Assembly: GCA_018433885.1 (NCBI GenBank)
Contig: JAHDQK010000019.1
Span: 1-64,000 of the forward strand
Source: Candidatus Cloacimonadota bacterium
Lineage (GTDB): Bacteria; Cloacimonadota; Cloacimonadia; Cloacimonadales; Cloacimonadaceae
Reading direction: 5' to 3'
DNA: 64,000 bases
Notes under the pieces: generated by a model
Told to the model about the DNA's origin: nothing
Seen by the model: only the letters and a program-made list of their open reading frames with translations
Database searches by the model: none
Position numbers and translations under genes: made by a program
Shown here: piece after piece, positions 1 through 38,214 of the stretch
How positions within the stretch are numbered: position 1 is the first letter of the stretch
How the letters are laid out: each line of letters opens with the position of its first letter

Positions 1-216
1 AAAAATGGGATTCAAAAGAGGGATTCTATGAGACATAAATGAGAAAATAGACCAAAAAGGTCACTTAGAAACTAAAAATGGCGGGCGGCTACAGAACAAA
101 TTCATCTCAATACATGCATCGATGGTTTATGCAATGGTCTTGTCTATGAGACCTATGAAGATTATCTGGACTTTGAACGTAAGCTCACTCTGATCCACGA
201 GGCCAAGGAAAATGGT

Positions 217-3153: not shown

Positions 3154-3160
3154 GGTCAGA

Positions 3161-11185: not shown

Positions 11186-12787
11186 GTGGGCAAGTTTAAC
11201 CCAAGCTCAATAGTAACTGATCCAGAATTTCTGTTTGGGAGGAAGAAGCTGCTTGATGATGCATGCGAAGGTATTCTAAGCGGTTCATCATTCTTTGTGT
11301 GGGGAGAAAGAAGAAGCGGTAAGACGTCATTCCTTAATTGCTTAAACAGAGAATTGTCTGATTCCCCGGGTGTCATTTCCATATTGATAGATTTCAAGTC
11401 GTTGACATTCATCACACGTACTGCCGATGCGTATAGATGGATTTCCTCGATGCTGCTAAATGCTGCTTTATGTATAAACGAGAGTATTGAATTAAGAGTG
11501 TTTGATCTCTCGATTTACAAGATGGATACTGAATACGACTATTATGAGTTACTCAAGAGCGTCGGAGATAGCGAGTGTGTTGCTGGGCTGTTGGATAGAG
11601 TTATTCAAGCTATAAGTAGTGCAATGGAAATAAAGCGTTTTGCTGTGCTTATTGATGAATATGAGCACTTGTTTGAGCGCACATTCGGCGAAGCAAACGG
11701 ATTTATGTACATCCGAAGTTTAGCATCTGATCCAAAGTTCTTATTTAGTTATGTTCTGTCTGGATCAATACACTGGCGTTATATGAGTAGTGCTATAGGA
11801 AGTCCTGAGCTAAACAACAGCATTACGAAGTATCTGCAACCCCTAAAATGGGATGACTTCCAAGCCTTTTATAGCTACGAATTGAGTACGCTAGATGCCG
11901 GAGCTAAGAAAGAAATCATTATCGATTTAGCATCCACTATCCATTCTCAATCTGGTGGGATACCATTCTATGCCAAAGTAATCGCAAGCGGATTGATGGA
12001 TGAAATTGATAAAGAGGAGCTATTCTCTGTACTAAGCCAATACTTTGATGAAAGGTACAAGAATATGTTGCGTAACTGTGGATGCAAGTCACTAAATGAA
12101 GTCAAATGCATGATAGATAACAAGGCAAGCCAGTATAGTGAGTTTCTAAGATTGGGCATTATCAAAAAAGATGGCGATCAAGCAGAGTTCAATGGAGACT
12201 ATTGGAAATCATATCTTGATCAAAAAGAAATTGAAGCTGATGCTGGAATTCATCATTTGGAAAATGAGATACTTAAAAAGCGTATCGAAGTTGAAAGATT
12301 GATAGGAAGGATAAACCTTAATCAGTGGAATTTAGCATCTGAGGAACTGTTTGTAAGATGCGTTGATGACTATAAGGACTATGATATGCTAAGCACGATG
12401 TGCCTAGATGAAAGCGATTTTATATGTTTTGCGGGTGCGATGTTCAAGATATTCTATGAGAGGACTGCCAATACAATTATGGATGAGCTGAAGCATCGTC
12501 CGGTTCAAAAAAATCGAGAATCTCTTCCCAAAATGATCCGGTCACACGAATTCATGATTGACGTTGGATCGATTAGGCACAACTTCGGAGGCCATAAAAC
12601 GTCATCACCTTTCTGGAACAGCTTAAACGGAAGCCTTAGTAAGGCTGATCTGTTGATGAAGTATTTGGGAAAGAAGCTTGAGCCTGCTCCGCATGAATAT
12701 CTGATTTTTCAATCCAGGTTATTGGCAGCAGCTATTGAATACTTGAATAAGGTTATTCAGATTCAGTCAGATATTACCCTGAGTTAG
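11186..12787 (+). CDS. AAA ATPase with HEPN-like C-terminal domain
   Basis: A 533-aa protein starting at GTG with GGAGG just upstream. The N-terminal AAA_16-type domain has FGRKKLL, Walker A GERRSGKTSFL near residue 40, and Walker B AVLIDEYEHLF near 151. After a winged-helix-like middle and a short coiled coil (about 355-380), residues about 385-533 form a helical bundle containing IRHNFGGHK. This is an R-x5-H pattern like the catalytic motif of HEPN ribonucleases. HEPN domains joined to STAND-like NTPases are known abortive-infection effectors that cut RNA. The reading here as a phage- or partner-triggered RNase is inference. It sits 11 nt after the TPR-ATPase gene and 13 nt before the SNF2 helicase gene. 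Confidence 0.75.
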   Translation: MGKFNPSSIVTDPEFLFGRKKLLDDACEGILSGSSFFVWGERRSGKTSFLNCLNRELSDSPGVISILIDFKSLTFITRTADAYRWISSMLLNAALCINESIELRVFDLSIYKMDTEYDYYELLKSVGDSECVAGLLDRVIQAISSAMEIKRFAVLIDEYEHLFERTFGEANGFMYIRSLASDPKFLFSYVLSGSIHWRYMSSAIGSPELNNSITKYLQPLKWDDFQAFYSYELSTLDAGAKKEIIIDLASTIHSQSGGIPFYAKVIASGLMDEIDKEELFSVLSQYFDERYKNMLRNCGCKSLNEVKCMIDNKASQYSEFLRLGIIKKDGDQAEFNGDYWKSYLDQKEIEADAGIHHLENEILKKRIEVERLIGRINLNQWNLASEELFVRCVDDYKDYDMLSTMCLDESDFICFAGAMFKIFYERTANTIMDELKHRPVQKNRESLPKMIRSHEFMIDVGSIRHNFGGHKTSSPFWNSLNGSLSKADLLMKYLGKKLEPAPHEYLIFQSRLLAAAIEYLNKVIQIQSDITLS

Positions 12788-12800
12788 TTAGAGTCTATAC

Positions 12801-15800
12801 ATGAAAATCGCGGTTAATCAAATCATTTCCAGCCCCCTCTTCAACGAACCCATGAGGGTTGTAACCATTACTCCTGGGGGCAACGAAGTATACGTCTTAG
12901 GCTTGGTAGGGACAAAAAGCCAAAGATTTAGGCAGGTCAATCTTACTGTCTCCCAGATTGAAGATCTTGAAATCATAGATAGCGCATACACATACGCTGG
13001 GAATGCCAATCTCCTCAGGCTCGGGTTGCAAGCCTATATACTTGGTATCGCATACGAGTTCGACCCCTATTTTGGCCTATCCATATCCAAAGTTGATCCC
13101 CTACCCCATCAGCTTGAAGCGGTATATGATTACTTTCTCAAGCTTGCCAGGATAAGGTTTCTATTAGCTGATGATGCGGGAGCCGGAAAAACCATCATGG
13201 CAGGTCTGTTGATCAAGGAGCTGAAACTGCGTGGTTTGGCTGATAGAATCCTGATCGTATGCCCCTCCAATCTCTCCTTCCAGTGGCAACGCGAGCTCTT
13301 GGAGAAGTTCGACGAGAAATTCACCGTGCTCAAAGGCTCAAACATCCGCAACCAATTCGGTTCGAACCAATGGCTGGAGCATAATAGGATAATTACTTCG
13401 TTGGATTTGGCAAAACGGGAAGACATTCTGCCAGGTTTAAAACAATCTCATTGGGATCTGGTGATTGTTGACGAAGCACACAGGATGTCCTGCTCCACGG
13501 GTGGCAAGACAGCCAGGTATCAACTAGGTGAATACTTGCGAGACATTACGGATCATTTGGTTCTCTTGACCGCCACACCGCACAAGGGAGATCCCGAGAA
13601 CTTCACTTACTTCCTGCAGCTTCTGGATAAGGACGTTTTTGCTGATGTAAAGTCTATCCGCCATGCCATGGAAAACCAAAGAGCCCCTTTCTACCTGCGC
13701 AGAACCAAGGAAGCAATGGTCTATTTCCCAGAGAGAGACAGCGCCGGAAACTGGCTACAAGCTAAGATATTCACCAAGAGGATAACCCAGACTATTGCTT
13801 TCCAGATAGACGGTGCGGAATTTGATCTCTACAGAAACATCACCAACTACGTTAAGCGACAAAGCGCTTTGGCTGCCGCAGATGGTAGCAATCCAAGAGC
13901 AAAGGCCATCGGCTTCCTTATGTCCATGTATCAAAGGAGATTGGCTTCCAGCACCTATGCTATGCGCAAGAGCCTGATAAACAGGGCAAATCGCCTTGAA
14001 GACGCCTTGAAGGATGCCTATAAACTGGCTAATCAGGCACCTCCAACAATTCCGGATGAAGAAGAATGGGAAGAGATGGAGGAGTATGAAAGAGAGAAGC
14101 TGGAGCAGATATTGGAGGCGATGTCTCTTGTTGAGAATAAAGAACTGGTGAAGGCTGAGATTGCCGATTTGCGTGCTTTTGCCAAAGAAGCCGAAGCAGT
14201 GGAGCTAGCCAACCAGGAAGCTAAGCTGGCTAAGCTCAGGTTTCTGCTCCAACAAGAGGGATTCTTCGAGCATAAGGACAGACGCCTTTTGATCTTCACC
14301 GAGTTCAAGGATACACTCTATTACTTAGAGGAAAAGCTCAAGTCCTGGGGCTTTGCGGTTGGCTGCATCCATGGCAGCATGAAACCAGGTTCTCGTAACG
14401 AGCCCGGGACTAGGCTTCACTCAGAGCAGATGTTCAGAGAAGGGCAGATCCAGATTCTACTCGCCACAGAAGCTGCTGGAGAAGGCATCAATCTCCAAGT
14501 CTGTAACATTATGTTCAATTACGATATCCCCTGGAATCCCAACCGTCTGGAGCAGAGGATGGGACGTATCCACCGTTATGGACAGAAGAAGGATTGCCTG
14601 ATCTTCAACTTCGTGGCTGAAAATACCATTGAAGGCATGGTTCTGAAGAAGCTGCTGGAAAAACTCCAAAATATCCGGGATGCCTTGGATGATGATGCTG
14701 TGTTCAATGTGGTGGGTGAGGTAATGCCCTCTGATCAGATAGAACGCATATTAAGAGATTATTATGCAGGGAAGCTGGGAGATGCTGACCTGGAACTCAG
14801 GATTCTGCAAAACGTGGATGAAGACCGCTTCCGGGCAATCTGCCAGAATGCCTTGGAAGGACTTGCATCCAAGAAGCTGAATCTTAGCATGCTCATCGAG
14901 CGCAGAGCCCTCGCCCAAGAAAGAAGAGTAGTACCCGAGACCATCCACAGATTCATCAATGAAACTGCTAAAATTGCAAGTTTCACAATCAAGGATCATC
15001 CCAGCCTAGCACATAGCTTTGATCTTGGTAAAACTCCCGCGCATCTGAAATCATTCGAATCGGAGCCGGATTGGAAATTACCTGCCATGGCCAACCAATA
15101 TCCCCGCTGTACCACAGACAGAACTACTTCAGAGAAACATAATCTGGAGTGGGTTACTCCCGGACATCCTTTGTTTGAAGCTCTCAGACGCTTTACAGAG
15201 AGTAAGGCAAGAAAGGATCTAGCCAACGGTGCCGCCTACTACTCACTGCAACATTCAGAGCCAGTAAGGTTGGATTTTTACCGGGCCAGAATAGTGGATG
15301 GCTTGGGCATCGTAATCCATGAGCGCCTTTTCGTGGTAGAAATTGCTGAGTATAAAGAGCCGATCTTGCGAGAACCCACCATTATCGGAGATTTTATAGC
15401 TGCAGAATCAGAGATTGAACTGCCAGCAGTTGCATTCTCTGAGGAAGCCCTCAATTGGCTAAATGATAATGCCTTCATGCCTTTCCTGAATGAAATCAAA
15501 GCAGAACGGGAAGATGAGATAAAGCGGGTTGAGAAACACGTTGAGCTTTCCCTAACGGAGATCATCGGTAAAGCAGATCAGGAAATTGGTAAGCTGGAGG
15601 ATGAGATAAAACTAGGGGTCGCCGGAGCCGAAGGTCGCTTGGCAATAGCTGAAAACCACCAGGCCAATATGATCGCCCGCCGGGAGAAAAGAAGAAAAGA
15701 GCTTCAACAACAGAAGTCACTCACCTTGCAGGGCGTTGAACGTATCACCAGTATTGTGGTGCTTCCTCACCCCGAAGCCCAGTCCGATTCCTTGAAGAAT

Positions 15801-16199
15801 CTGAAGCCAAATTATGAAACTGAGGCAATTGCCATGAAAGTGGTTATGGAATATGAGGAATCGAGCGGCAGAAAGGTCTTTGATGTCCATGAAAAGAATC
15901 TCGGTTACGATATCACCAGCCTTGACGTATCCTCTGGAGAACTGCGCCTTATCGAAGTAAAAGGGATTGGAGCAGAATCCGGCACCATTATCCTTACTCC
16001 CAATGAAAGAAGAGTTGCCGAGGATAGGCCGGACTGTTTCTGGCTCTATGTGGTAACCAACTGCAATACTGCACCGCAACTTCAAGCTCCAATACTAAAC
16101 CCTGCCCAGTATCAATGGAATGAAGTGAAGAAAGTACAGCATTATACGATAAGCACGGCGAAGATAGTCGAAGGTAATAGGAATGGCACTAGGATTTAA
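12801..16199 (+). CDS. SNF2-family helicase with C-terminal DUF3883 (DrmD-like)
   Basis: A 1,132-aa DNA translocase of the kind found in DISARM (DrmD) and DUF1156/DUF499 modules. Visible features: PHQLEAVYDYF Q-like motif, Walker A DDAGAGKTIM near residue 128, DEAH box VIVDEAHRMS, LLTATPHKGDPENF motif III, and C-terminal helicase motifs (LIFTEFKDTL, LLATEAAGEGINLQ, RMGRIHRYGQK). A long coiled segment (about 905-960) follows. The end is a DUF3883 nuclease-like domain (NLGYDITSLD, then LRLIEVKGIG), which resembles a D-ExK restriction fold. The start is the ATG at 12,801; no strong Shine-Dalgarno is visible, consistent with coupling to the gene ending 13 nt before. The 3' end overlaps the next gene by 17 nt. 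Base composition is visibly richer in GC than the two ATPase genes upstream. Confidence 0.9.
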   Translation: MKIAVNQIISSPLFNEPMRVVTITPGGNEVYVLGLVGTKSQRFRQVNLTVSQIEDLEIIDSAYTYAGNANLLRLGLQAYILGIAYEFDPYFGLSISKVDPLPHQLEAVYDYFLKLARIRFLLADDAGAGKTIMAGLLIKELKLRGLADRILIVCPSNLSFQWQRELLEKFDEKFTVLKGSNIRNQFGSNQWLEHNRIITSLDLAKREDILPGLKQSHWDLVIVDEAHRMSCSTGGKTARYQLGEYLRDITDHLVLLTATPHKGDPENFTYFLQLLDKDVFADVKSIRHAMENQRAPFYLRRTKEAMVYFPERDSAGNWLQAKIFTKRITQTIAFQIDGAEFDLYRNITNYVKRQSALAAADGSNPRAKAIGFLMSMYQRRLASSTYAMRKSLINRANRLEDALKDAYKLANQAPPTIPDEEEWEEMEEYEREKLEQILEAMSLVENKELVKAEIADLRAFAKEAEAVELANQEAKLAKLRFLLQQEGFFEHKDRRLLIFTEFKDTLYYLEEKLKSWGFAVGCIHGSMKPGSRNEPGTRLHSEQMFREGQIQILLATEAAGEGINLQVCNIMFNYDIPWNPNRLEQRMGRIHRYGQKKDCLIFNFVAENTIEGMVLKKLLEKLQNIRDALDDDAVFNVVGEVMPSDQIERILRDYYAGKLGDADLELRILQNVDEDRFRAICQNALEGLASKKLNLSMLIERRALAQERRVVPETIHRFINETAKIASFTIKDHPSLAHSFDLGKTPAHLKSFESEPDWKLPAMANQYPRCTTDRTTSEKHNLEWVTPGHPLFEALRRFTESKARKDLANGAAYYSLQHSEPVRLDFYRARIVDGLGIVIHERLFVVEIAEYKEPILREPTIIGDFIAAESEIELPAVAFSEEALNWLNDNAFMPFLNEIKAEREDEIKRVEKHVELSLTEIIGKADQEIGKLEDEIKLGVAGAEGRLAIAENHQANMIARREKRRKELQQQKSLTLQGVERITSIVVLPHPEAQSDSLKNLKPNYETEAIAMKVVMEYEESSGRKVFDVHEKNLGYDITSLDVSSGELRLIEVKGIGAESGTIILTPNERRVAEDRPDCFWLYVVTNCNTAPQLQAPILNPAQYQWNEVKKVQHYTISTAKIVEGNRNGTRI

Positions 16200-17103
16200 A
16201 CAAAGAAATGCAATAAGGAAGCTTGCGGAGATACTTACCAATTTCTTGCCAGCGTCAGGTAATCCAATGTGGAAAGGACACGTTAATTTTGGTTCTGTAG
16301 CTACAAAACTCGGATTATCAGAATACTGGCATGGTGGAAGTAAGCTTCCTGCCATAATCTATCTGCTCGAAAACACATACGAGAGAAAAAGAAGTTGCTT
16401 TCAAAACTTGATAGAAGCAGTCGTATTAGAAGGGAAAACCTATAGAAACAACAAGGGTAATCCATTGTTAAGGAATGAGGTTGACGAACTGAATAAATGT
16501 CTGCTTGAGTTGGAGTTTAAGTTTCCCGATCTACATGATCCTAAGTTTCTGGAGTCTCTTGAAGATACTTTGTCCACAATCATTAAAACTCCTGTAGAAG
16601 GGTCAGTTGAGACAAGATACCGACAACAGTTGTATGAACTTAAGACAGAATTTTATGATCTTTCTAAGCTTGACAATCGGCAGGATGCAGGATATAGATT
16701 AGAAAAATTATTGAGCAGATTGTTCGAAACTTCAGGGCTAAATTCACGCTCTCCCTTTAAGGTTTGTGGTGAGCAGATAGATGGATCTGTCGAGATAGAT
16801 ACTAACACATATCTAATTGAGGTTAAGTGGACAAAGAAACCCATAAACGAAAGTGACCTATTGGTTTTCAGAGGTAAGGTAGAGGGTAAAAGCAGTTTTA
16901 CACGAGGGATGTTTTTATCGATTAACGGTTTTACCGAAGAAGCAATAACTGCAATTACGACTGGGAAACAACCAAACTTCTTTTTGCTAGACGGGTATGA
17001 CCTAACTACGGTGCTAGAAGAGAAGTGCTCATTAGGTGAATTACTAAGACATAAAATCAGAAAGCTTGCCGAGGAAGGATCTGTCTATGTTAGGCTTCCT
17101 TAG
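16183..17103 (+). CDS. Mrr-like restriction endonuclease
   Basis: A 306-aa protein. Its C-terminal half has the Mrr/REase signature: RLEKLLSRLFETSGL, then Asp in CGEQIDGSVEI and Glu-x-Lys in YLIEVKWTKKP at about residues 200-225. This is the PD-(D/E)xK metal-binding arrangement. The N-terminal half is helical and may recognise DNA or a partner. Its ATG lies inside the last codons of the SNF2 helicase gene (17-nt overlap), so translation is probably coupled. Downstream is a UvrD-like helicase after 41 nt. Expected role: double-strand cleavage within the defence system. Whether it spares DNA modified by the methylase two genes downstream cannot be read from sequence. It is more AT-rich than the helicase gene. 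Confidence 0.83.
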   Translation: MALGFKQRNAIRKLAEILTNFLPASGNPMWKGHVNFGSVATKLGLSEYWHGGSKLPAIIYLLENTYERKRSCFQNLIEAVVLEGKTYRNNKGNPLLRNEVDELNKCLLELEFKFPDLHDPKFLESLEDTLSTIIKTPVEGSVETRYRQQLYELKTEFYDLSKLDNRQDAGYRLEKLLSRLFETSGLNSRSPFKVCGEQIDGSVEIDTNTYLIEVKWTKKPINESDLLVFRGKVEGKSSFTRGMFLSINGFTEEAITAITTGKQPNFFLLDGYDLTTVLEEKCSLGELLRHKIRKLAEEGSVYVRLP

Positions 17104-17144: not shown

Positions 17145-19085
17145 ATGCCATGGTATGATAACCTATTAGATAATCAACGTGAAGCAGCCAGTTGCGATTG
17201 TGACAGAGTTGTGCTATTAGCGGGCCCTGGTACCGGGAAAACGCTAACGTTAACCAGGAGAGTCTGCTACTTATTAGAGGTGCAAAACGTTGACCCCAGG
17301 AACATTTGTGTAATTACGTTTTCCAGAGCTGCAGCAGCTGAACTAAGAACAAGAATTACCAAAGAATTGGGAGAAACATCGATACCCAAGACATCAACCC
17401 TCCATTCATTTGCTTTAAGTCAATTGCTTAGGTTAACAAAGTACAATAACAACTTACCTATGCCGATCAGGATTGCAGATGATTGGGAAGAAAGATACAT
17501 AGTGCTTGAAGACCTGAAAAGGCAACTAAGTATTCCCAAGGTTTCTGATGTGAATGATCTGTTGAATCAAATGTCCTCTGACTGGCAAAGCCTTACAGCG
17601 GATGAGCAGGAATGGGAAAACCGTTTCCCAAATCCTCGATTCATTGGAGCCTGGCGAGAGCATCGGCAAGTTTACGCATACACACTAAGATCAGAATTAG
17701 TATACCAATTAAAACACACAATTCAGCAGAACCCACAAATAATTGACAATATTGGTTTCGGGTACCTCCTTGTTGACGAGTACCAAGACCTTAACAGGTG
17801 TGACCTTGCAGTTATTAAATTCCTCTCGGAGGCAGGTATTCGGCTTTTTGTTTCCGGAGATGACGACCAAAGTATATATGGGTTTCGCAAAGCTCATCCA
17901 ATGGGAATCAGAAGGTTTACAGTAGATTACCAGCAATCAGAATCTAAGAATCTGAACATTTGTAAACGATGCGATCAGAACATACTAGACTTCAGCTTGT
18001 TCGTTGCAAGACAAGACCCCCTAAGGCTTGATAAAGTTATCGTATCTGACAGCACGAGAACAGCAGACATCCGTGTGCTGAGATTTGATAATCAAATCTC
18101 TGAAGCGGAGGGTATCTCACGGTTATGTAGTTACTTAATTAATCACGAAGGCATACAAGCGCATGACATACTAATCCTGCTAAGATCTAACAAGAATAAT
18201 TGTTTTTCAAACATCATTGCTAATAGTCTTCTTGATCATGGCATATCCGTAAAAACCCAGGAAACGGAATCAAGCGTCTTTGATGATACAGGGGGACGTA
18301 GGCTATTATCTTACCTGAGGCTTATCGTTAACCCAACAGATGAGCTTTCAATGAGATCTATAATACAAACAACCCAAGGTATAGGTGCAGGTGCAATTGA
18401 TGCTATCTATCGCATATGCCAAGAGAGAAATGTTAGATTTTGCCAATCCTTGGTTTTGATAGCCCAACAACCATCAATACTAACGACATGGGGAAATAGA
18501 ATCAAGCTTGCGTTTGAAAGTATACATGTGAATCTAGCTCGATATAATCAACTATATGATCCTTCATGTATTACAACCGCCGAACTTCAAAATCTGATTT
18601 CAATCATTTGTATCGATCTTGACCTGCAGGAGACTGAGCAAGTTCAAATCTTGAACTGGTTTCAAAACTATATTGACGCTTCTGATGATGATTTATTAAG
18701 GATAGACGATATCTTAAGGGAAAAAGACACCTCACTCGAGAATGCCGAAGTCGTCTTTGAAAAAGGCAAGGTTCATATAATGTCAATGCATAAAGCTAAA
18801 GGCCTAACCGCCGAAGCAGTTATAATACCAGCATGCGAAGATGAGCATATACCTGGACGGAATACTGAAATTGAATCCATGAAAGAAGAAATGCGCTTAT
18901 TGTACGTATCTTTGACGCGCGCAAAGCATTATTTATACCTGACCTATTGTAATAGGAGAACTGATAGCCAATGTTATGCAGGTAGTAATTTAGGTCGGAC
19001 TCAACGAACTTTATCACGGTTTCTTGCAGATGCTCCTGTCTCACCTACTGACGGTACACAATTCACAAGGAGTTTACCTAATTAA
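17145..19085 (+). CDS. UvrD/Rep-family (superfamily 1) DNA helicase
   Basis: A 646-aa protein with the full UvrD/Rep set: Q-motif LLDNQREAASC, Walker A LAGPGTGKTLTLTRR, motif Ia ITFSRAAAAEL, motif II LLVDEYQDLN, motif III VSGDDDQSIYGF, motif V SMHKAKGLTAEAVIIP, and motif VI LLYVSLTRAKHYL. It unwinds DNA 3'-5' in repair, but in this context probably processes phage DNA with the neighbouring Mrr-like nuclease. A comparable helicase-nuclease pairing occurs in Gabija, whose partner is an OLD-type nuclease rather than Mrr. It ends one base before the ATG of the methylase. The C-terminal 2B/1B regions are shorter than in E. coli UvrD (720 aa). Confidence 0.88.
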   Translation: MPWYDNLLDNQREAASCDCDRVVLLAGPGTGKTLTLTRRVCYLLEVQNVDPRNICVITFSRAAAAELRTRITKELGETSIPKTSTLHSFALSQLLRLTKYNNNLPMPIRIADDWEERYIVLEDLKRQLSIPKVSDVNDLLNQMSSDWQSLTADEQEWENRFPNPRFIGAWREHRQVYAYTLRSELVYQLKHTIQQNPQIIDNIGFGYLLVDEYQDLNRCDLAVIKFLSEAGIRLFVSGDDDQSIYGFRKAHPMGIRRFTVDYQQSESKNLNICKRCDQNILDFSLFVARQDPLRLDKVIVSDSTRTADIRVLRFDNQISEAEGISRLCSYLINHEGIQAHDILILLRSNKNNCFSNIIANSLLDHGISVKTQETESSVFDDTGGRRLLSYLRLIVNPTDELSMRSIIQTTQGIGAGAIDAIYRICQERNVRFCQSLVLIAQQPSILTTWGNRIKLAFESIHVNLARYNQLYDPSCITTAELQNLISIICIDLDLQETEQVQILNWFQNYIDASDDDLLRIDDILREKDTSLENAEVVFEKGKVHIMSMHKAKGLTAEAVIIPACEDEHIPGRNTEIESMKEEMRLLYVSLTRAKHYLYLTYCNRRTDSQCYAGSNLGRTQRTLSRFLADAPVSPTDGTQFTRSLPN

Positions 19086-19086
19086 T

Positions 19087-22059
19087 ATGATTCAAAAAGA
19101 ATGTAAACGACTCGCAGAAGTAGATTTTCCGATTGCCGCAGTTTCAAAACACGCTGTCCGAGAGAAGTCTATCCATCATGGTCATCCCAGTACTTTGCAC
19201 TTGTGGTGGGCAAGGCGTCCTCTTGCTTCGAGCCGGGCGATGCTCATGGCTCTACTATTGCCAGATCCTTGTGATCCCTACTGCCCCGGTGCCTTCAAAG
19301 AAAAAGCCAGGAAATTACTTCCTTCTTTGTGTGGGACCATCGGTGAAACCGACTATGATCTGCAACGTAAGCTACTGCATTTCATAGCTGATTTTGCCAA
19401 CTGGGATAACGCGCATAGAAAGGAATACCTGGAACTTAGCAGGGCTTTGATAAAAGCCGCCCATCCTGAGGAAACACCTTTGGTGGTAGACCCCTTTGCC
19501 GGAGGAGGCAGTATTCCATTGGAGGCACTCCGAATTGGTTGCGATGCTTTTGCCAGTGATCTGAATCCAGTTGCCTGCCTGATCCTGAAAGTAATGCTGG
19601 AAGACATCCCCAAAAGCGGTCCTGAATTGATTGATGAACTGAAGGCCGCTGGAGACAGAATTATCAAACAGGCAAAAGAAGAGCTTAAGCATTATTATCC
19701 CGCTGATCCTGATGGCTCAAAACCGGTTGCCTATATCTGGGCAAGAACGGTATGCTGCGAATCTCCCGACTGCGGAGCAGAAATCCCTCTAATGCGCAGT
19801 TTCTGGCTATGCAATAAGGCAAGAAAGAAAGTAGCCTTGAAGCCAGTAGTTAAGCGAATGGATGGAGATGTCCCATCAGTTGATTTTGAAATCTTTGAGC
19901 CAAAAAAGGAAAGCGAAGTACATGGACCTACAGTGGCACGAGCCAAAGCCACCTGCTTATGCTGTGGATCGGTTCTTCCTCCTGATCGGGTTCGATCTCA
20001 GCTAGCCAATCAAAATGGTGGTGCTGATGTAATCTTTAACGATAAAGGTGAGCGATCTGGTGGCGCAAGACTCTTAGCGGTAATTACTATTAAGGAAAAT
20101 TCAATCGGAAAGAATTATAGAATCTCGCAGCATAAAGATTACAACGTGTTGATAAAAGTCCAAGATTCAATAATGGCTATTTGTAATCAGTGGAAAGATA
20201 GTGGAAAAGGTGATGTTTGCCCCATTCCTTTCGAAGCTACTCCTAAAGGGGGTGGATCTGGCGCAGGAAGAGCCTTTTCTATTCATAGTTATGGGATTCT
20301 AAGATATAAAAACCTATTTTCAAATAGACAATTACTAAGTTTGCTCACAGTTCGTAAGTTGATTGAAGCCGAGAATAGTGCAATCATACCTGATATGTTA
20401 GCTCTTTCTTTTACAAAAGGAGCGGATGGCAATAATGCACTTTGTAGATGGATGCCAGGATACGAGAGCCCTGTGAATCTCTTCTCTAGACAAGCCATTC
20501 CAATAGTGTGGGATTTTTGTGAGTCGTCGCCAGAGTCAAGATCTAGGGGCGTTTTTCTTTCTTCTCTTGATAGTCTGATTGAAATAATAAAGAACTACTC
20601 GTCAGATAAGTCTGGACAGGTGCAACAAGCCGATGCATGTTGCTCGCCTCTACCATCTGATTCTGCTGACTTGTTCTTTACTGATCCCCCATACTACGAT
20701 GCCATTCCATACTCAGATTTATCAGACTTTTTCTTTGTTTGGTTAAAGAGACTTTTGCCAAATCATCCTCTCCTTAAAGATCCCTATAACATATCAAATG
20801 AGCTAACACCTAAGGATAGAGAAATTGTCCAAGATGAAACTCGATCATACGATAATCACGTGAAAAACCGAGAGTTTTTTGAGAATATGATGGCAAAAGC
20901 TTTTTCAGAGGGCAGAAAAACACTTGCTGATCACGGTATAGGCTCAATAGTATTTGCTCATAAATCCACGGAGGGATGGGAAGCACTACTCAATGGAATT
21001 ACCAAGGGTGGATGGACTGTTACTGGTTCCTGGCCGATCGCCACAGAAATGGGAACTCGGCTAAGAGCGCGTGAGTCTGCTGCTCTGGCTACCAGCATCC
21101 ATCTAGTTTGCCGTCCTCGACCAGATAATGCAGGAATTGGAGATTGGTCTCATGTTCTGCAAGAGCTCCCTCAAAAGGTAGGTAAATGGATTGACCGTCT
21201 GGAAGCAGAGGGAGTACGGGGTGCTGATCTGGTCTTTTCCTGCATAGGTCCAGCCCTGGAGATCTACAGCCGTTACCGCAAAGTGGAGACCGCGGAAGGC
21301 ATAGAGATAAGCATCGGCACGTATTTGGAGAAGGTATGGGAAGTGGTTGGCAGGATAGCATTGGAGCAAGTGCTGGGGTCGGCAGAATCCCTGGCAAGAA
21401 ATGGCGCTTCAGGTGCCTTGGAAGAGGATGCCCGGTTAACAGCTCTTTTCCTCTGGACCCTACAATCCACAGATACATCATCAACTGCTTCAAACGAAGA
21501 GGTGGATGACGAATCAGAAGATGATGAGGACGCTCCCAAGAAAGGGAAATCCAAAGCAGGGTTTTCTCTGGTCTATGATGTTGCCAGGCGTTTTGCGCAA
21601 CCCCTGGGGATAGACTTAAGTAAATGGGATAAACGCATCATTGACATCGATAAAGGTACTGTGCGGCTAATCCCTGTATGGGAAAGGGCAGATACGCTGT
21701 TTGGCAGTGATAAGATCTCGCGGGTCGATGCAACGTTTGAAGTCAAAGAACAGCTTGAGATATTTGAAGAATATGCTTCGAAGCCACTGCCTAAGATCAA
21801 GGGCAAAAAAGTAAAGCTATCGGGAGCAGAAGAAACTCAACCGATCATGGTCACTACTCTGGATAAAGTACATGCTGCCATGCTCTTGCAAGATAATGGA
21901 CAGACCAATGCCCTAAGAGCTCTGATCAAAAGCGAGATGGAGCGGGGACAGGACTTTCTGCGCCTGGCAAACTCATTATCAGCCCTCTATCCCAAGGGCT
22001 GCGATGAAAAGAGGTTGGTGGATGCGATGCTCTTGAGTGTGCGGAGCGTGTCCAAGTAA
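19087..22059 (+). CDS. DUF1156 (COG1743) adenine-specific DNA methylase with zinc ribbon
   Basis: A 990-aa N6-adenine methyltransferase of the anti-phage-associated DUF1156 family. It would mark host DNA so that the system spares it. Visible features: the N-terminal DUF1156 signature (SKHAVREKSIHHGHPSTLHL, followed by WWARRPL), S-adenosylmethionine-binding motif DPFAGGGSIPLEALR near residue 137, cysteine pairs of a zinc ribbon (CCESPDCG, later CLCCG), and catalytic motif DPPYYDAIPYSDLSDFFF near 535. The C-terminal third has an acidic linker (DDESEDDEDAPKKGK). I chose the ATG at 19,087, one base after the helicase stop, because the conserved N-terminus begins there. The middle (roughly 20,030-20,930) is more AT-rich than the two ends of the same gene, as expected if the target-recognition segment had been exchanged. 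Confidence 0.92.
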   Translation: MIQKECKRLAEVDFPIAAVSKHAVREKSIHHGHPSTLHLWWARRPLASSRAMLMALLLPDPCDPYCPGAFKEKARKLLPSLCGTIGETDYDLQRKLLHFIADFANWDNAHRKEYLELSRALIKAAHPEETPLVVDPFAGGGSIPLEALRIGCDAFASDLNPVACLILKVMLEDIPKSGPELIDELKAAGDRIIKQAKEELKHYYPADPDGSKPVAYIWARTVCCESPDCGAEIPLMRSFWLCNKARKKVALKPVVKRMDGDVPSVDFEIFEPKKESEVHGPTVARAKATCLCCGSVLPPDRVRSQLANQNGGADVIFNDKGERSGGARLLAVITIKENSIGKNYRISQHKDYNVLIKVQDSIMAICNQWKDSGKGDVCPIPFEATPKGGGSGAGRAFSIHSYGILRYKNLFSNRQLLSLLTVRKLIEAENSAIIPDMLALSFTKGADGNNALCRWMPGYESPVNLFSRQAIPIVWDFCESSPESRSRGVFLSSLDSLIEIIKNYSSDKSGQVQQADACCSPLPSDSADLFFTDPPYYDAIPYSDLSDFFFVWLKRLLPNHPLLKDPYNISNELTPKDREIVQDETRSYDNHVKNREFFENMMAKAFSEGRKTLADHGIGSIVFAHKSTEGWEALLNGITKGGWTVTGSWPIATEMGTRLRARESAALATSIHLVCRPRPDNAGIGDWSHVLQELPQKVGKWIDRLEAEGVRGADLVFSCIGPALEIYSRYRKVETAEGIEISIGTYLEKVWEVVGRIALEQVLGSAESLARNGASGALEEDARLTALFLWTLQSTDTSSTASNEEVDDESEDDEDAPKKGKSKAGFSLVYDVARRFAQPLGIDLSKWDKRIIDIDKGTVRLIPVWERADTLFGSDKISRVDATFEVKEQLEIFEEYASKPLPKIKGKKVKLSGAEETQPIMVTTLDKVHAAMLLQDNGQTNALRALIKSEMERGQDFLRLANSLSALYPKGCDEKRLVDAMLLSVRSVSK

Positions 22060-23890: not shown

Positions 23891-26695
23891 ATGGAACCCT
23901 GGCATAAACTTGTAACACCACGAAAAGAAGTCCGGGAAGGCAGATCATTCAATCCGGATGAATTTGCCATACATTTGGAGCAGATTGTAAACGGCACTGC
24001 TCCGGAAGACTACAAGAACCCTGAGCCGTTCTTTGCCCGCACCTGTTTTACTAGCGCTTTGAAAGAACACTGTGCCATGACCCTACGCAGATTGGCAGGA
24101 GATACGGTGAATACTGCTCCGGTTATGACTTTGATAACTCAGTTTGGTGGAGGTAAGACGCACACTCTAGCTACCCTCTATCATTTGGCGAATAGCGGTG
24201 ATGCAGCCAGGGCTTTTGCTGGTATCCAAGATTTCTGCAACTGGACTGGATTGTCAGGTATTCCCAAAGCAAAAGTAGCCGTATTTGTGGGGAATGCATG
24301 GGACCCTACTCCTGGTAGGGAAACACCTTGGATAGACATTGCCTATCAGCTAGCCGGTCAAGAAGGTGTAAATGAGCTGGGCTTGAATTCTACCAAAGTC
24401 CCACCCGGAACCGAGACCTTGAACAGGGTGTTTGCAGCAGCAAAATCTCCGGTTTTGATCCTCTTTGACGAGGTGTTGAACTTCATGAACCGTCACAGAG
24501 ATATGTGTGATCAATTTCATGCCTTTATCCAAAACCTTACTGTGGCTGCAACCGGGGCCTCGAACTGCGCTGTGATGATCAGTTTACCGCGCAGCCAAGT
24601 GGAGATGACGGACTGGGATATAGCCTGGCAGGATAAGATCACCAAGGTTGTAAAGCGTGTGGCGAAAGACTTGATCGCCAATGATGAATCAGAGATCAGC
24701 GAAGTAGTTAGAAAGCGCCTCTTTGACGATATCGGTGACTCCAAAAAGATCAAGAATATCTGCAAAGAATATGCGCTGTGGGCGTTTGAACGAAGGGCTC
24801 AGCTTCCCCCGGAGTGGATGTCTGTTGATAGATCAACCACAGAAGCTTCAGCTATCGAGATGCTGCAAAAGAAATTTGAACAATGCTATCCCTTTCACCC
24901 AGCTACCCTGTCTGTCTTCCAAAAGAAGTGGCAAGCGCTTACCCAGTTTCAGCAAACCCGCGGAACCCTAGCGATGCTTGCCCAGTGGATATCTTATGCC
25001 TATAAAACAGGTTATACAGAAGCCAGAAGAGAAACCTTGATCACGTTGGGATCGGCGCCTCTGGAAGCCAATGAATTCAGAGGCGTGGTTCTGGGACAAC
25101 TGGGTGAAATGAGGCTTCAAGCTGCGATTGATGCTGATCTCTCTGGTAAACATTCTCACGCTAACGCCCTAGATGCTGATGCTAAGGATGAATTGAAATA
25201 TATCCATCGCAAGGTTGGCACGGCGATCTTCTTTGAATCTTCAGGCGGTCAGAGCGATAAAACCGCTCATCTACCGGAACTCAGATTTGCCCTGGGCGGT
25301 CCTGGCTTGGATACCACAACAATTGATAATGCGGCCTTTGCACTTGAAGATAAGGCCTATTTCATCCGTAGAGTTGGCACAGATGGCTATAAAATCGGTT
25401 TTCAACCCACTCTGAAGAAAGTGGTCAATGACCGTAGGGCATCCATTGATTATGAAAGCCAGGTTAAGCCATTACTCAAAGAGACCATTCAGACAGAATT
25501 CAAAAAGAACAGCCAGCTACCTATATCGTTTTTCCCTGCTGATAGCAGTTCTATTCAAGACTCTACTAAGCTGACGATTGTAGTAGCCGAACCCGATAAA
25601 GAATGGATGGAAAGTGAAGCATTCAAAACTGATCTATCTCAATGGATCAAATCCAGAGGAACTTCACCCAGGCTGTATCCAGCAGCTTTGATTTGGTGCT
25701 TTAAAAAGCAAGGGCGAGAGTTGAGGGATAAGGCTGAGGTTCTGCTAGCTTGGAAACAAGTAAACAAGGAATACGCTGACGGCCTACTTGGAAGCGATAT
25801 GAGCAGCAGCGATATTGCTGAGCTGAGATCTAAACTGATCGATTCAGAAAATGCGGTCAAAGATGAGATATGGGCATCATACCGGTATATTGCTCTATAT
25901 ACCAAAAATCAGGAAAATCACAATCTTCACATAATCGACCTAGGCCAGGGTCACTCCAGTGCCAGCATCTCGCTAAGCTATAGGATTATTACGGCTATGA
26001 AATCTCAAGCACTCTTGAATGATTCTGTGGGTGTTAGCTACCTGGAGCGATCTTGGCCTGAGGCATTCAAAGATAAAGGCGCATGGCCTCTGAAGAGCCT
26101 AAGGCAAAGCTTTCTGGACGGCTCTCTTACTCGTCTGGCTGATCCTGATGCGGTTCTGAAAAGCAAGATTCACGACTTTGTGTATAAAGGAGATGCGGGA
26201 CTTATCTCATCATCCAGTGCCGATGGCTCAGGTTATCACCTCTGGTTCAAGGAAGACATTGATCCTTCAGAGATCATGTTTGTATCAGAAGTGAGCCTGG
26301 TGATGGCAAAAAAGGTGGATCTATACAAACCCAAAGATGAGCATGGTCCTCAACCTGATCCTGATGGAAGAGTGACACCTCCCGAACCTGAGGGTGATGG
26401 TCAAGGGACTAGTACTAACTCTGGAACTGGTTCCACATCAGGTCAGGACCAAAATGATCCTCAGTCTGAGCTGCCGCGCATCGAAACAATAAAACTGAGC
26501 GGAGAACTACCTTATGAGCTTTGGAACAAGTTCTCCAGGTCAGTTCTCAACAAGCTAAATGCAAGCAGCAAGAGTCTGTCCATCAAGATAGACATCAAAG
26601 CTGAAGTGGAATCCAACCGCTCTGAGAATATTAAGAAAGAGCTCTTGAGCGGGATACAAGAGGTGAATCTGGATGATAAGATTAAGATTATATGA
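23891..26695 (+). CDS. DUF499 (COG1483) AAA+ ATPase
   Basis: A 934-aa protein of the anti-phage-associated DUF499 family, related in organisation to the PglY/BrxC ATPases of BREX. Visible features: the N-terminal family block (LVTPRKEVREGRSFNPDEFA), Walker A FGGGKTHTL near residue 88, and Walker B VLILFDEVLNFMN near 193. A Pro/Gly/Ser-rich linker at about 815-855 precedes a C-terminal domain starting IKLSGELPYELWNKF. It usually partners the DUF1156 methylase and an SNF2 helicase. Here it follows the AbiE-like pair by 25 nt with a weak GGAG site. Probable role: energy-dependent sensing or assembly of the restriction complex. Base composition is close to the methylase and SNF2 genes and differs from the AT-rich genes between them. 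Confidence 0.92.
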   Translation: MEPWHKLVTPRKEVREGRSFNPDEFAIHLEQIVNGTAPEDYKNPEPFFARTCFTSALKEHCAMTLRRLAGDTVNTAPVMTLITQFGGGKTHTLATLYHLANSGDAARAFAGIQDFCNWTGLSGIPKAKVAVFVGNAWDPTPGRETPWIDIAYQLAGQEGVNELGLNSTKVPPGTETLNRVFAAAKSPVLILFDEVLNFMNRHRDMCDQFHAFIQNLTVAATGASNCAVMISLPRSQVEMTDWDIAWQDKITKVVKRVAKDLIANDESEISEVVRKRLFDDIGDSKKIKNICKEYALWAFERRAQLPPEWMSVDRSTTEASAIEMLQKKFEQCYPFHPATLSVFQKKWQALTQFQQTRGTLAMLAQWISYAYKTGYTEARRETLITLGSAPLEANEFRGVVLGQLGEMRLQAAIDADLSGKHSHANALDADAKDELKYIHRKVGTAIFFESSGGQSDKTAHLPELRFALGGPGLDTTTIDNAAFALEDKAYFIRRVGTDGYKIGFQPTLKKVVNDRRASIDYESQVKPLLKETIQTEFKKNSQLPISFFPADSSSIQDSTKLTIVVAEPDKEWMESEAFKTDLSQWIKSRGTSPRLYPAALIWCFKKQGRELRDKAEVLLAWKQVNKEYADGLLGSDMSSSDIAELRSKLIDSENAVKDEIWASYRYIALYTKNQENHNLHIIDLGQGHSSASISLSYRIITAMKSQALLNDSVGVSYLERSWPEAFKDKGAWPLKSLRQSFLDGSLTRLADPDAVLKSKIHDFVYKGDAGLISSSSADGSGYHLWFKEDIDPSEIMFVSEVSLVMAKKVDLYKPKDEHGPQPDPDGRVTPPEPEGDGQGTSTNSGTGSTSGQDQNDPQSELPRIETIKLSGELPYELWNKFSRSVLNKLNASSKSLSIKIDIKAEVESNRSENIKKELLSGIQEVNLDDKIKII

Positions 26696-26778: not shown

Positions 26779-28464
26779 GTGAAGAATAAAACAACATCCC
26801 TTAAGAGCATCGTTAAGTATCTAAACAACAAAGATGAGGATGGTGGGTTCTGGTTACCCAATATCCAGAGAGCATTTGTATGGAAAGAAGAACAGATATG
26901 CAAGCTGTACGATTCAATAATGCGTGAATACCCAATTAGTTCTCTTCTAGTATGGAAGACGGTATCCCCAATATCTACACGGAAATTTATCGATAACTAT
27001 AAGATTAAATATGAAAATGAGCTGAGTGGTTTCATTAATCAGACAGATGAGAAGAAGAAAAACTTGGTTCTTGATGGGCAACAGAGGCTACAGAGCCTTT
27101 ATATAGGGTTAATGGGGTCATATGAGGGCAAAGAATTATACTTCGACACAACCAGTAATCACGATGATATCAAGGAAGAAATCAGATATAGGTTTGCTTT
27201 TTTGGAACAATCGAAGGTGACATTTCCGTGGGTTAAGGTTAAGGACATTGTATATGGACCGAAGAATTGGAACTTGGCATTCAAAAATGTGGTTGCAGGA
27301 TACAAAAATGACTGGAATCCAGCATACGAGGAAATCGTAAAAAACAACATTGCCTCAATTGTCCAGATATTTACCTCAGATGAGGGGATCTCATATCAAG
27401 AAATTGACAGCACCGAAAATGATGGATTATATACTGATAATGACATAGTTGAGATTTTTATCCGAGCAAATTCCGGAGGTACTCTATTAGGTAAATCGGA
27501 TTTGTTATTTGCCTTGCTAGCTGCCAACTGGGATAAAGCTATAACTGCCATAGAAGACCTCTTAGACGATTTAAACCGTAATGGCTTTGATTTTACTAGA
27601 GACTTTGTTTTGAAAACATGCCTGACTCTTCTCGACAAATATGCTCGTTATGATGTTGATAAGTTTAGAGACCAGTCTGTGTTGCAAGGTATTGAAGAAA
27701 ACTGGGATAGAATTTCTAATTCAATCAAAGTTGTATGTGATTATCTCCGCAGCCGGACATTTATCAGGACAGATAAAGCTCTTCCTTCGTACTTGATATT
27801 GATCCCCATTATTTATGGAGTGTACAAATATAAAGTTGATATAAATCAGGTTCCAAAACTTAACGAGTACTTAATCCGAGTATCACTGGTCGGTGCTTAT
27901 GGCTCTCGTCCAGACCAACTTATAGATGCCAGTGTAAAGGCAATTCAGAACAAGAAGGATATTGTAGTCGAGGAACTTTACGAAGTTATCAGGCAACAGC
28001 AACGACCGCTTGAGATTACTGGAGAGAAACTTATGCAAATCAGTTACGGCTCCAAAAACATCCACTTACTCTTCAATCTCTGGTATGAATCATTCGAGTA
28101 TACCCCTGTCTTTTACAACAATGTTCCACAAACAGACCACATTTTTCCACGAAGCATATTAGAAAAGGTGAAAATTCTCAATCCTGAGACAAACAGAAAA
28201 GTCATGAAGTACACAGAATCACAAAGAAATCAATTAGCAAATTGCATGTTATTGACTAGAAAAGAGAATGGTGCTAGTGAAAAATGGGATACCTCTCCAG
28301 AGGAATGGTTCAAGGATAAAACTAGTGATTATCTTGATTTACATTTAATCCCGCGAGATCCTGCCTTGTGGACACTGGATAATTACGACCGCTTCATTGA
28401 AGAGAGGAAGAAGCTAATACTGAATAAATTTAGGTATTTGATATCTCAGGATACGACAATTTAG
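26779..28464 (+). CDS. GmrSD-family type IV restriction protein (DUF262 + HNH DUF1524-like)
   Basis: A 561-aa single-chain protein. The N-terminal DUF262/GmrS domain shows WLPNIQRAFVW, then EYPISSLLVWK, and the NTP-binding LVLDGQQRLQSL at about residues 95-106. The C-terminal GmrD/DUF1524-like HNH region shows TDHIFPRSIL at about 454-463 and NQLANCMLL. GmrSD and related BrxU enzymes use an NTP to cut phage DNA with modified bases. It starts at GTG 26,779; no better in-frame start is near, and the ribosome site is weak. It is the last cargo gene, 83 nt after the DUF499 gene and 22 nt before the transposon-end repeats. It would complement a methylation-based system by attacking phages that evade it through base modification. 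Confidence 0.88.
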   Translation: MKNKTTSLKSIVKYLNNKDEDGGFWLPNIQRAFVWKEEQICKLYDSIMREYPISSLLVWKTVSPISTRKFIDNYKIKYENELSGFINQTDEKKKNLVLDGQQRLQSLYIGLMGSYEGKELYFDTTSNHDDIKEEIRYRFAFLEQSKVTFPWVKVKDIVYGPKNWNLAFKNVVAGYKNDWNPAYEEIVKNNIASIVQIFTSDEGISYQEIDSTENDGLYTDNDIVEIFIRANSGGTLLGKSDLLFALLAANWDKAITAIEDLLDDLNRNGFDFTRDFVLKTCLTLLDKYARYDVDKFRDQSVLQGIEENWDRISNSIKVVCDYLRSRTFIRTDKALPSYLILIPIIYGVYKYKVDINQVPKLNEYLIRVSLVGAYGSRPDQLIDASVKAIQNKKDIVVEELYEVIRQQQRPLEITGEKLMQISYGSKNIHLLFNLWYESFEYTPVFYNNVPQTDHIFPRSILEKVKILNPETNRKVMKYTESQRNQLANCMLLTRKENGASEKWDTSPEEWFKDKTSDYLDLHLIPRDPALWTLDNYDRFIEERKKLILNKFRYLISQDTTI

Positions 28465-28485: not shown

Positions 28486-28629
28486 GAGACAATTGCAGAA
28501 GTCATGTCACAAATTGCAATTTTCGGTGATCTAAATTGCAGGATTCTTGTCACAAACTATTCAAATTGTCTTGTAAAGGATGTCCTACGATGCATAAGGA
28601 TGCGACAGTTTGCAGATTTCGTTGTCACT
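28486..28629 (+). repeat. Direct-repeat array, probable right end of the transposon
   Basis: Three copies of a ~21-bp unit lie at 28,491-28,511, 28,534-28,554 and 28,608-28,629. The shared core is TTGCAG, then (A/G)(A/T)(G/T)TC, then TTGTCAC or ATGTCAC. The third copy has one extra base. Copies 1 and 3 also share GxGACA just before the core. A weaker partial copy (AATTGCAATTTTC) lies at about 28,513-28,525. Such spaced direct repeats with GTCAC facing outward are typical of transposase-binding sites in right ends of TniA/TnsB-type elements. The exact terminus is not fixed; the CA in the last GTTGTCA (28,621-28,627) is the best candidate. Confidence 0.7.
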
Positions 28630-28650
28630 ATAAAATTACTTCAGATAATT

Positions 28651-28701: not shown

Positions 28702-29652
28702 TTAGAGCTGAGTGTCCTTGAAAAGCTGGGACATGGTCTTCACCGAACCCAGCAGAGCGGAGGATTCATAAGGAAGCACCACTGTCTTGTCTCCCTTCTG
28801 CACCAATCCCTCAAACGCGGCAATGTATTTCAACGCTATCTGGTATTGAGCAGGGTCTGCACCGGATTCTTTCAAAGCTTCAGCCACCAACAGGATGGAT
28901 TTACGTTCGGCATCCGCAACCAAGAGCTTGGATTGCGCTTCACCATCGGCACGAGCGATCTTGGCCTGTCTTTCACCTTCCGCGGTAAGGATTTGGTATT
29001 CTCTTTCGCCTTCGGCGGTGAGGATCTTCGCACGTTTATCGCGCTCTGCCCGCATTTGTTTTTCCATCGCATTACGAATCTCTTCCGGAGGCTGAATCTC
29101 CTGCAGTTCCACCCGGTTTACTTTCACGCCCCATTTATCTGTGGCTTCATCCAAGATGTTCCGTAATTTGGCATTGATGCTATCGCGCGAGGTAAAGGTA
29201 AGATCTAGGGTTAGTTCGCCGATTACGTTACGCAGAGATGTCTGAGTAAGCTTCTCGATCGCTTCCGGCAGGTTTCCGATCTCATACACCGCTTTATAGG
29301 GATCTGTGATCTGGAAGTACAAGAGGGCGTTGATGTTCATGGAAACGTTATCTGCCGTGATCACGTTTTGTCGGGGGAAATCGTAAACGCTTTCCCTCAG
29401 GTCAATCCGATTCTCCACTCTTTGAGCGACCACCACATTGCCCCGATAATCTGTTTTGTTGTAACGCCAGTGGATCGGACGCATTTTATCGAAGATCGGC
29501 ACTACGATGTGCAACCCGCTGGGGAGAGTTTTGTAATACTTGCCCAAGCGTTCGATAATAACTACTTCCGCTTGCCGCACCACGATGATGCCGCGCGCGA
29601 TGAAGATAACTACCAGAGCGGCAAAAGCTATAACAAGATATAAGGAGAACAT
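28702..29652 (-). CDS. SPFH-domain (stomatin/QmcA-like) membrane protein
   Basis: A 316-aa protein with one N-terminal transmembrane helix (MFSLYLVIAFAALVVIFIA). An SPFH/band-7 domain follows (VRQAEVVIIERLGKYYKTL, then GLHIVVPIFDKM, and ITADNVSMNINALLYFQITD). After that come Ala/Glu-rich coiled repeats (KILTAEGEREYQILTAEGER) and the C-terminal paraslipin tail (VVLPYESSALLGSVKTM). Stomatin-like proteins form membrane rafts or cages and often partner NfeD proteases, but no NfeD gene is beside it here. I chose the ATG at 29,652, which follows GGAGGTGG. Longer in-frame sequence to 29,760 adds a non-conserved 36-residue extension. This is the first host gene to the right of the transposon, transcribed towards it. 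Confidence 0.9.
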   Translation of the reverse strand: MFSLYLVIAFAALVVIFIARGIIVVRQAEVVIIERLGKYYKTLPSGLHIVVPIFDKMRPIHWRYNKTDYRGNVVVAQRVENRIDLRESVYDFPRQNVITADNVSMNINALLYFQITDPYKAVYEIGNLPEAIEKLTQTSLRNVIGELTLDLTFTSRDSINAKLRNILDEATDKWGVKVNRVELQEIQPPEEIRNAMEKQMRAERDKRAKILTAEGEREYQILTAEGERQAKIARADGEAQSKLLVADAERKSILLVAEALKESGADPAQYQIALKYIAAFEGLVQKGDKTVVLPYESSALLGSVKTMSQLFKDTQL

Positions 29653-29826
29653 TTCCACCTCCACTTCATTTGTATGCTCAAGATACTGGGTATCCCGATC
29701 TTGGCAAGTAAAATATTGTCCTTGGGCGTTTGAATCGTATCTAAAACGCCACACAGGCAAGCTCGTTACCGGAATGATATTGCCTGTGTGGTCAATATAA
29801 GAGGGCGAAAGTGCCCAATACTTCTT

Positions 29827-36602: not shown

Positions 36603-38214
36603 GGTTTTTTCCAGATGAGTTTAGTCTTTTATGCGGGCACAAATTTGTCAAGAAAGACTTTATCCCCCATCACTTTTTTCGCGTCTCTCAATATCGCTTA
36701 TGGTGATAACATGATTCAATAAGCTTATCGAGGCAAGGTATAGTGCCATTTGAACGGCGTATCCACGTATCTAAATTAAGCGGGTAGAGTAACCACATCC
36801 TTTCATTTGTAAACCAAGAATATTGGCTGTCCGCAAACCGAAATCCCTAGGCGTTTCGCAAAAAAATAGCGGGATGCTAATCTTCTTGCCTTGGAGGAGG
36901 TTCTTGATTGACAATAATTTTCTATAAACAGAACCAGGCACCCCCATTGCTCAAAGCAATCGCCCTGCCGTCTCGATGCAGCAGGCGCTGCATGATCACG
37001 ACATCGCGATTGATTCGGGAAAAGGGGATAAATGTCTATAGCGTGTGGAGATAGATTGCTTAAACCCGATTGATGCCATTGGAGTTCATTTGGCCATCTC
37101 AAATCTCCAATGCAGCTAGTAGTTAAACAGGCCAAATGGACTTCAATCGCATGTACTGTTTTTATCCCGGCGATGAAGTCCAAGCCCCCCTGTAACCATT
37201 AGCAATTGAAGTAAATAGGGTTAGGGGCTTGAACTCCATGGCCTTAGCTGGGTTACAGTTTGGATTTCATGTATTCGCTAAGTGCCATTTTGCAATCTCA
37301 ATGCCTTGTGTCGCCCACGGGCTCTGGATATCAATTCCAATAGCCTGGATGATACCAGAGACACATCAAAGCCCTGGCACCCTGGATAAATGACGATCAG
37401 ATCGAATATGACTCAGAGATGAACCCAGTAGGTGTCTCCGGAGATCATACTCCATCCCCGCCTTTTCATTGGAAATGCAGGACAACGACCACATTGCAAA
37501 TAAATGACTAAGATACTATCAGAATTGAATCAAGCCTCGAAACCTCCCGACCACTCAAATTTAATCAAGATGTAGTTGGTCTCAGTTTAGAAACTGACGC
37601 TTGTTTTAAGGTAGATGCTTTGACTGGTAACATCATACATATGGTAGACGGTTGGGCTGGTCACTACAATGAAGAACGACCTCACAGGTCTCTGAATTTT
37701 ATGGCTCCCTACGAGTTTATTGATGCCTATAACGTCAAAGCGAATTCACCATTACAAACTGGTCTATAAAATGGGGTACGGTCACGATTATATCATTGTA
37801 TCGTTTTTTGTTCATTGAGGTATAGCCGATCACTTTCATTGTCCTGTCCTAACTTGATTATCAATGCAGTGTAACGAAATCCAGACTATCAGTAACTGTC
37901 AATCCCCAAATCTGTTGTACCCCTATACATCTGTATTATATTGCCCAGGGCTTTTTTATATGAAGTTTTTTGCGGTTTACGATTGATTGTCAGATGGAGG
38001 GCTTTGGTGGGGCTAAGGAGATGGATATTAGGCGCATAGAGGGTATAAGTGATGGTTAAAATACAATTTTAGATTGACAAAAAAGCATGGTCACAAGTTC
38101 ATGCTCTGATTAAGATAAATATTTGAAAAACGTAATGTCCGGATTTGTGCCAAGTGCAGTTATGAGATATTATTGAATCAGGTTCATTACTTTTTTTACC
38201 TAAGGAGAAATAAA
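36603..38214. other. Gene-poor interval with IS remnant
   Basis: About 1.6 kb between the divergently transcribed MCE and rpmF genes. The only coding trace recognised is the 3' tail of an IS3-type transposase (37,611-37,769). A 126-aa minus-strand open frame (36,803-37,183) has a composition unlike a real protein and no ribosome site. TTGACA at 38,074-38,079 could be part of the rpmF promoter, but no matching -10 is visible. The rest shows no tRNA-like or other recognisable element, and looks like decayed mobile DNA. Confidence 0.5.
37611..37769 (+). pseudogene. C-terminal remnant of an IS3-family transposase (OrfB)
   Basis: Translation from 37,611 to the stop at 37,769 gives the typical end of the IS3 DDE transposase: the segment WAGHYNEERPHRSLNFMAPYE matches the W-x3-YN-x2-RPH-x-SL-x4-P-x-x-F motif. 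The frame is open only back to 37,512, and nothing recognisable of the catalytic core (DDE, the N-terminal HTH) precedes it. No flanking terminal inverted repeat was identified. It is a deletion remnant. Confidence 0.75.

Follow-up and report, generated by a model that had tools for sequence, protein, structure and literature searches.

A repeat array that very probably forms the right end of a defense-carrying Mu-type transposon in Cloacimonadota

Genes and features of the locus

The window, i.e. the whole 64,000-nucleotide stretch of Candidatus Cloacimonadota DNA that was analyzed, starts at a contig edge and opens inside an interrupted transposase gene. According to PHROG and Pfam matches, a MuA-like DDE transposase and a MuB-like ATPase are encoded by adjacent genes. 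A small third gene follows, and a series of cargo genes leads to a repeat array near 28.5 kb. All sequence data, here and in the comparisons below, are draft metagenome assemblies. The features to the left of the array are as follows.

1-141, no strand assigned: end of a multi-copy IS of about 1.3 kb inside the transposase gene, duplication GTCTA (IS junction)
142-2430, plus strand: MuA/TnsB-like transposase, 3' part, with the 5' part on contig C38 (Pfam Mu-transpos_C; PHROG 310 transposase)
2443-3153, plus strand: MuB/TnsC-like AAA+ ATPase (AAA_22, TniB; PHROG 296 DNA transposition protein)
3146-3664, plus strand: small HTH-like protein, third gene of the module, of which the phages also have one
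3685-5235, minus strand: RtcR-like sigma-54 activator, adjoining the module and common to the element at G008:C4
5338-5637, plus strand: HNH endonuclease-domain protein (cargo)
6876-11174, plus strand: TPR / AAA ATPase protein (cargo)
11186-12787, plus strand: AAA ATPase (cargo)
12801-16199, plus strand: HmaA-like SNF2 helicase (cargo; PADLOC HmaA, E 1.5e-172)
16183-17103, plus strand: Mrr_cat restriction endonuclease domain (cargo)
17145-19085, plus strand: UvrD helicase, GajB-like (cargo)
19024-22059, plus strand: HmaB-like DUF1156 adenine methylase (cargo)
23891-26695, plus strand: HmaC-like DUF499 ATPase (cargo)
26779-28464, plus strand: GmrSD / HEC-05-like restriction protein (cargo), adjoining the right end

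The module has the gene order repressor / HTH / MuA-like transposase / MuB-like ATPase / HTH. An intact relative (L051) encodes a CI-like repressor, a 190-aa protein, an 864-aa transposase (PHROG 310, Mu-transpos_C), a 236-aa ATPase (PHROG 296), and a 172-aa HTH-like protein; its repressor, with Peptidase_S24 and HTH domains and a PHROG phage-repressor match, is divergent from the transposase operon. The repressor region of the window's element lies on contig C38 and is colinear with G008:C4. An AlphaFold2 model of the transposase was poor (mean pLDDT 47.8, pTM 0.25) and was set aside. Elements with at least 83% identical transposases were also present in three MAGs labelled Bacteroidota (L052, L053, and L056), reflecting either horizontal transfer or misbinning. 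The N-terminal part of the RtcR-like activator may be CARF-like, as judged by eye only.

Contig C38 and the window meet within the transposase gene via 141-bp IS-derived contig-end tails. The same IS end is also found on contigs C29, C84, C31, and C18, and window positions 1-141 were accordingly rejected as the left end of the element itself.

Layout of the right-end array

The initial annotation had described a noncoding array of three units with spacings of 43 and 74 bp, and the sequence agrees on each count. The motif TTGCAG-N6/7-TGTCAC occurs at 28493, 28536, and 28610 and nowhere else in the 64-kb window, while 100 first-order Markov resamplings gave 0.02 occurrences per 64 kb on average and at most 1. 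The array is flanked by the stop codon of the HEC-05/GmrSD-like gene at 28464 and by a minus-strand SPFH gene (28702-29760). Its parts are listed below.

28491-28634, plus strand: right-end block of repeated units, putative transposase-binding array (25 aligned copies; homology end; 5-bp duplication outside)
28493-28510, plus strand: unit R5, TTGCAGAAGTCATGTCAC
28514-28529, plus strand: unit R4, degenerate, TTGCAATTTTCGGTGA
28536-28553, plus strand: unit R3, TTGCAGGATTCTTGTCAC
28579-28602, plus strand: spacer with GATG every 10 bp (28579, 28589, 28599), kept in most copies
28610-28628, plus strand: outermost unit TTGCAGATTTCGTTGTCAC, R2 and R1 fused, 21 bp shorter than in other copies
28629-28634, plus strand: terminal hexamer TATAAA, mostly NTTGCA, NTTACA, or NTTATA in other copies
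28635-28639, plus strand: target-site duplication ATTAC, its second copy immediately bordering the left end on contig C38

Alignment of 25 copies yielded a common family layout of three units in tandem, of which the middle one is degenerate, followed by the GATG spacer and two tandem units. The loss that fused R2 and R1 is confined to the window copy, these units being separate in the other 24. Because the IS splits the transposase gene and the two outermost units are fused, the window's copy of the element is probably immobile by itself. A 23-bp match to the spacer at 28579-28602 was also found at C67:3218, where it stands without the array.

Conservation of the right end across genomes

A right-end match was detected in 34 of the 148 genomes searched, comprising the window's own genome and related ones. 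Further copies in the same genome lie on contigs C32, C64, C16, and C70 (partial). Across the 25 aligned copies, all from Cloacimonadota genomes, the conserved block measures about 165 bp and runs from the first unit to six bases past the last GTCAC, and the sequences outside it are mostly unrelated on both sides. Window positions 142-28624 are colinear at 94% identity with the element at G008:C4, which occupies a different site in another species; the cargo and the module therefore move or descend together. The homology between these two elements stops at 28624. The proposal that the array is a transposon right end located at the element's boundary is thus borne out, as the block is found at further sites in this genome and in some 25 related ones, with homology ending at its outer edge, short of the position (28650) beyond which its continuation would have spoken against the proposal.

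The initial annotation had also regarded the same repeats in genomes lacking the transposase as contrary to its reading, and such cases do occur: a close transposase copy (at least 75% identity) was not seen in 15 of the 25 genomes whose right-end match is strong. The direct explanation is that these matches belong to non-autonomous copies, with gaps in the MAGs contributing as well. At C16 and G030:C61, both ends are present and the transposase gene is absent between them.

Left end, insertion site, and target duplications

Homology among relatives of the transposase reaches about 2.1 kb upstream of the reading frame derived from the window and stops at TATAAACTGACACCCAAAGCTGCAA, a left terminus that is present at many loci. 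More distant members have the left terminus TA(T/C)AAA..TCACCCAAA. The left terminus resembles the right one in inverted orientation, though imperfectly. The left end carries at least two conserved units, and the same kind of unit is thus present at both ends of the element.

The left end of the window's element and its flanking gene are located on contig C38. In both G003 and G006 this flanking gene and the SPFH gene of the window are neighbors. When the C38 and window flanks are joined at ATTAC, the resulting empty site can be aligned to G006 across the end of the flanking gene, a terminator hairpin, and the SPFH gene. ATTAC is found directly outside both ends, on the C38 side and at 28635-28639. 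The element has a size of approximately 30.7 kb without the IS, of which about 28.6 kb is in the window and about 2.04 kb on C38. The initial annotation was right in placing the array at the element's end, but that end is 28634 rather than 28629 because the C38/C78 pair places ATTAC at 28635-28639; the fourth, degenerate unit and the fused state of the outermost one further refine its description of the array. An end at 28629 with GTTGCA as a target preference was rejected on the same grounds.

Five-base duplications were also identified at other elements, namely CATAT at G040:C17 and GTAGA at G006:C40. Departures were observed at G030:C61 (six bp) and at G003:C17 (an imperfect five), and no clear target duplication was found at the flanks of G008:C4 and G047:C102, in which both ends are present. 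Five bp is thus the common duplication length, with exceptions. The C16 element is flanked by a 15-bp direct repeat (L020:3810-3824 and L009:8732-8746) instead of the usual 5 bp, and a tRNA nucleotidyltransferase-like gene has its stop codon at this repeat.

Cargo of related elements

Defense cargo (Hma, Ssp, BREX, or restriction genes) was present in six of the seven elements examined from the window's clade. The window and G008:C4 elements carry the Hma helicase, methylase, and ATPase together with HEC-05. The C16 element encodes SspC, SspD, SspA, SspF, and a DndH-like protein, and G040:C17 has a similar set, as judged from gene order. BREX PglX was found in C32 and G030:C61, the former also encoding PglZ and BrxL, while G033:C19 carries ZacC, a DrmD-like helicase, and a type III restriction enzyme. 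The cargo of G047:C102, MinD-like ATPases and a peroxiredoxin as read from the sequence, is not obviously defensive. Judged from these gene contents, cargo is exchangeable between the same ends and is not always defense.

Relation to transposable phages of Cloacimonadota

Relatives of the transposase are encoded by viral contigs, at no more than about 60% identity to the window clade. A terminase large subunit was found in 45 of 46 viral contigs examined with at least 38% identical transposases, nearly always together with genes for the ATPase, the HTH protein, DUF3164, and MuF in a matching arrangement. These transposable phages of Cloacimonadota (IMG/VR, e.g. L186, L183, and L195), approximately 30-40 kb in length, share with the element the order repressor / transposase / ATPase / HTH, the left terminus TAyAAA..TCACCCAAA, and 5-bp duplications (CAGTG, AATAC, and CCCTT at three phages). 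Three phage right ends bear tandem TTGCAG units, and two of them (L186 and L195) have the 3+2 layout. Unlike the window clade, with its mostly defensive cargo, the phages carry terminase and MuF; no TerL match was obtained in the window or in the available relatives of its clade, and no terminase or MuF match in the elements of that clade. Viral contigs bearing GATGCGACAGTTTGCAG were dismissed as three chance matches in which the array is absent. Outside the element, at window positions 37356-37496, the MuF protein of a Mu-like phage is represented by a 47-aa fragment that shares 83% identity with the G020 prophage.

A tree built from 69 transposases places the window clade (13 rows, support 97/96), which contains no terminase-bearing member, among the phages. 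The transposase paralogues of C21 (L016) and C3/G025 (C3 being L017) form separate terminase-free branches of the phage tree. Here terminase-free means no match within the available flank, and the number of conversions is approximate in a tree with long branches.

Discussion

Taken together, the array is very probably the right end of a Mu-type transposon of about 30.7 kb, whose transposition module derives from transposable phages of Cloacimonadota and in which the packaging genes have given way to mostly defense cargo. The TTGCAG-N6-TGTCA units would act as transposase-binding sites from which a Mu-like synaptic complex is built. The MuB-like ATPase would choose and activate the target, the CI-type repressor may silence the module or control its operon, and transposase from an intact copy could move copies without a transposase gene. 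Speaking against this interpretation are the terminal hexamer TATAAA, a departure from the NTTGCA norm, the elements with missing or irregular target duplications, the draft state of the metagenome assemblies, and the not obviously defensive cargo of G047:C102.

Phage Mu has a MuA/MuB module, a repressor, 5-bp duplications, and several transposase sites at each end. The element resembles it in its MuA/MuB-type module, repressor, 5-bp duplications, and repeated units, which are predicted transposase sites, at both ends, but differs in the motif and number of sites and in having no virion genes. Identity to named transposable phages was approximately 22-29% among the matches listed. CasMu-I and CasMu-V are Mu transposons of a phage-like type in which MuA and MuB are combined with CRISPR systems (PMC10910872, PMC11656645). 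They and the element are alike as Mu transposons with MuA, MuB, and non-phage cargo; however, the CasMu cargo is a guide-RNA targeting module, whereas here no array of this kind was detected and Hma, Ssp, BREX, or restriction systems are carried instead. Mu-type transposons with CRISPR cargo are already known (PMC10910872), while no description of the defense-loaded form was found in the open-access literature.

Tn7-like transposons with defense cargo are well documented (PMC8649781) and likewise combine a DDE transposase with an AAA+ ATPase, exchangeable defense cargo, and 5-bp duplications. The initial annotation had pointed to Tn5053-like and V-K CAST ends, and on that account the array would be the TnsB-binding right end of a Tn7/Tn5053-type or V-K CAST-like transposon. 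The only PDB matches of the transposase profile are indeed V-K TnsB (E 5.6e-8), the ATPase matches TniB, and outward GTCAC-type motifs are shared along with the duplication length. Nevertheless, a Pfam scan of the element's proteins gave no match to TniQ, TnsA, or Cas12k/Cas12, and no 20-mer occurs three or more times in 142-28640, as a CRISPR array would have it. A whole-genome TniQ search also gave no match, but the controls of that search were silent as well. The CI-like repressor, the phage gene order and end layout, and the branching inside the phage transposases all argue for the Mu-like phages as closest kin, and the suggested kinship with Tn5053 and CAST elements is improbable.

A Mu-like prophage that has decayed and later accumulated defense genes of the host, rather than an independently mobile defense element, would have the same module as the phages and could be damaged as this copy is, with an IS in the transposase gene and fused end units. 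This is very unlikely considering that the whole cargo is colinear with that of G008:C4, located elsewhere and in a different species, and that other members enclose different complete defense systems with these ends and gave no match to terminase or MuF. That the repeats are repressor operators or other regulatory sites, or chance occurrences unrelated to transposition, can be given almost no credence despite the shortness of the units and the CI-like repressor encoded by the element, as like units occur at both ends and the block is kept in 25 copies and stops at duplicated target bases.

Returning to the Mu-type transposon, a broader and doubtful conjecture is that transposable phages of this one phylum turned into defense transposons more than once, the transposase-less copies being satellites mobilized, and perhaps packaged, by phages or intact elements. 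The defined ends permit exact delimiting of defense islands in Cloacimonadota, transposase-less copies included, and together with the transposase they constitute a ready assay for mechanism. Furthermore, the element and its phage relatives, which within a single phylum agree in how their ends are laid out, in the length of their duplications, and in gene order, outline at the sequence level how a virus can become a vehicle for genes directed against viruses.
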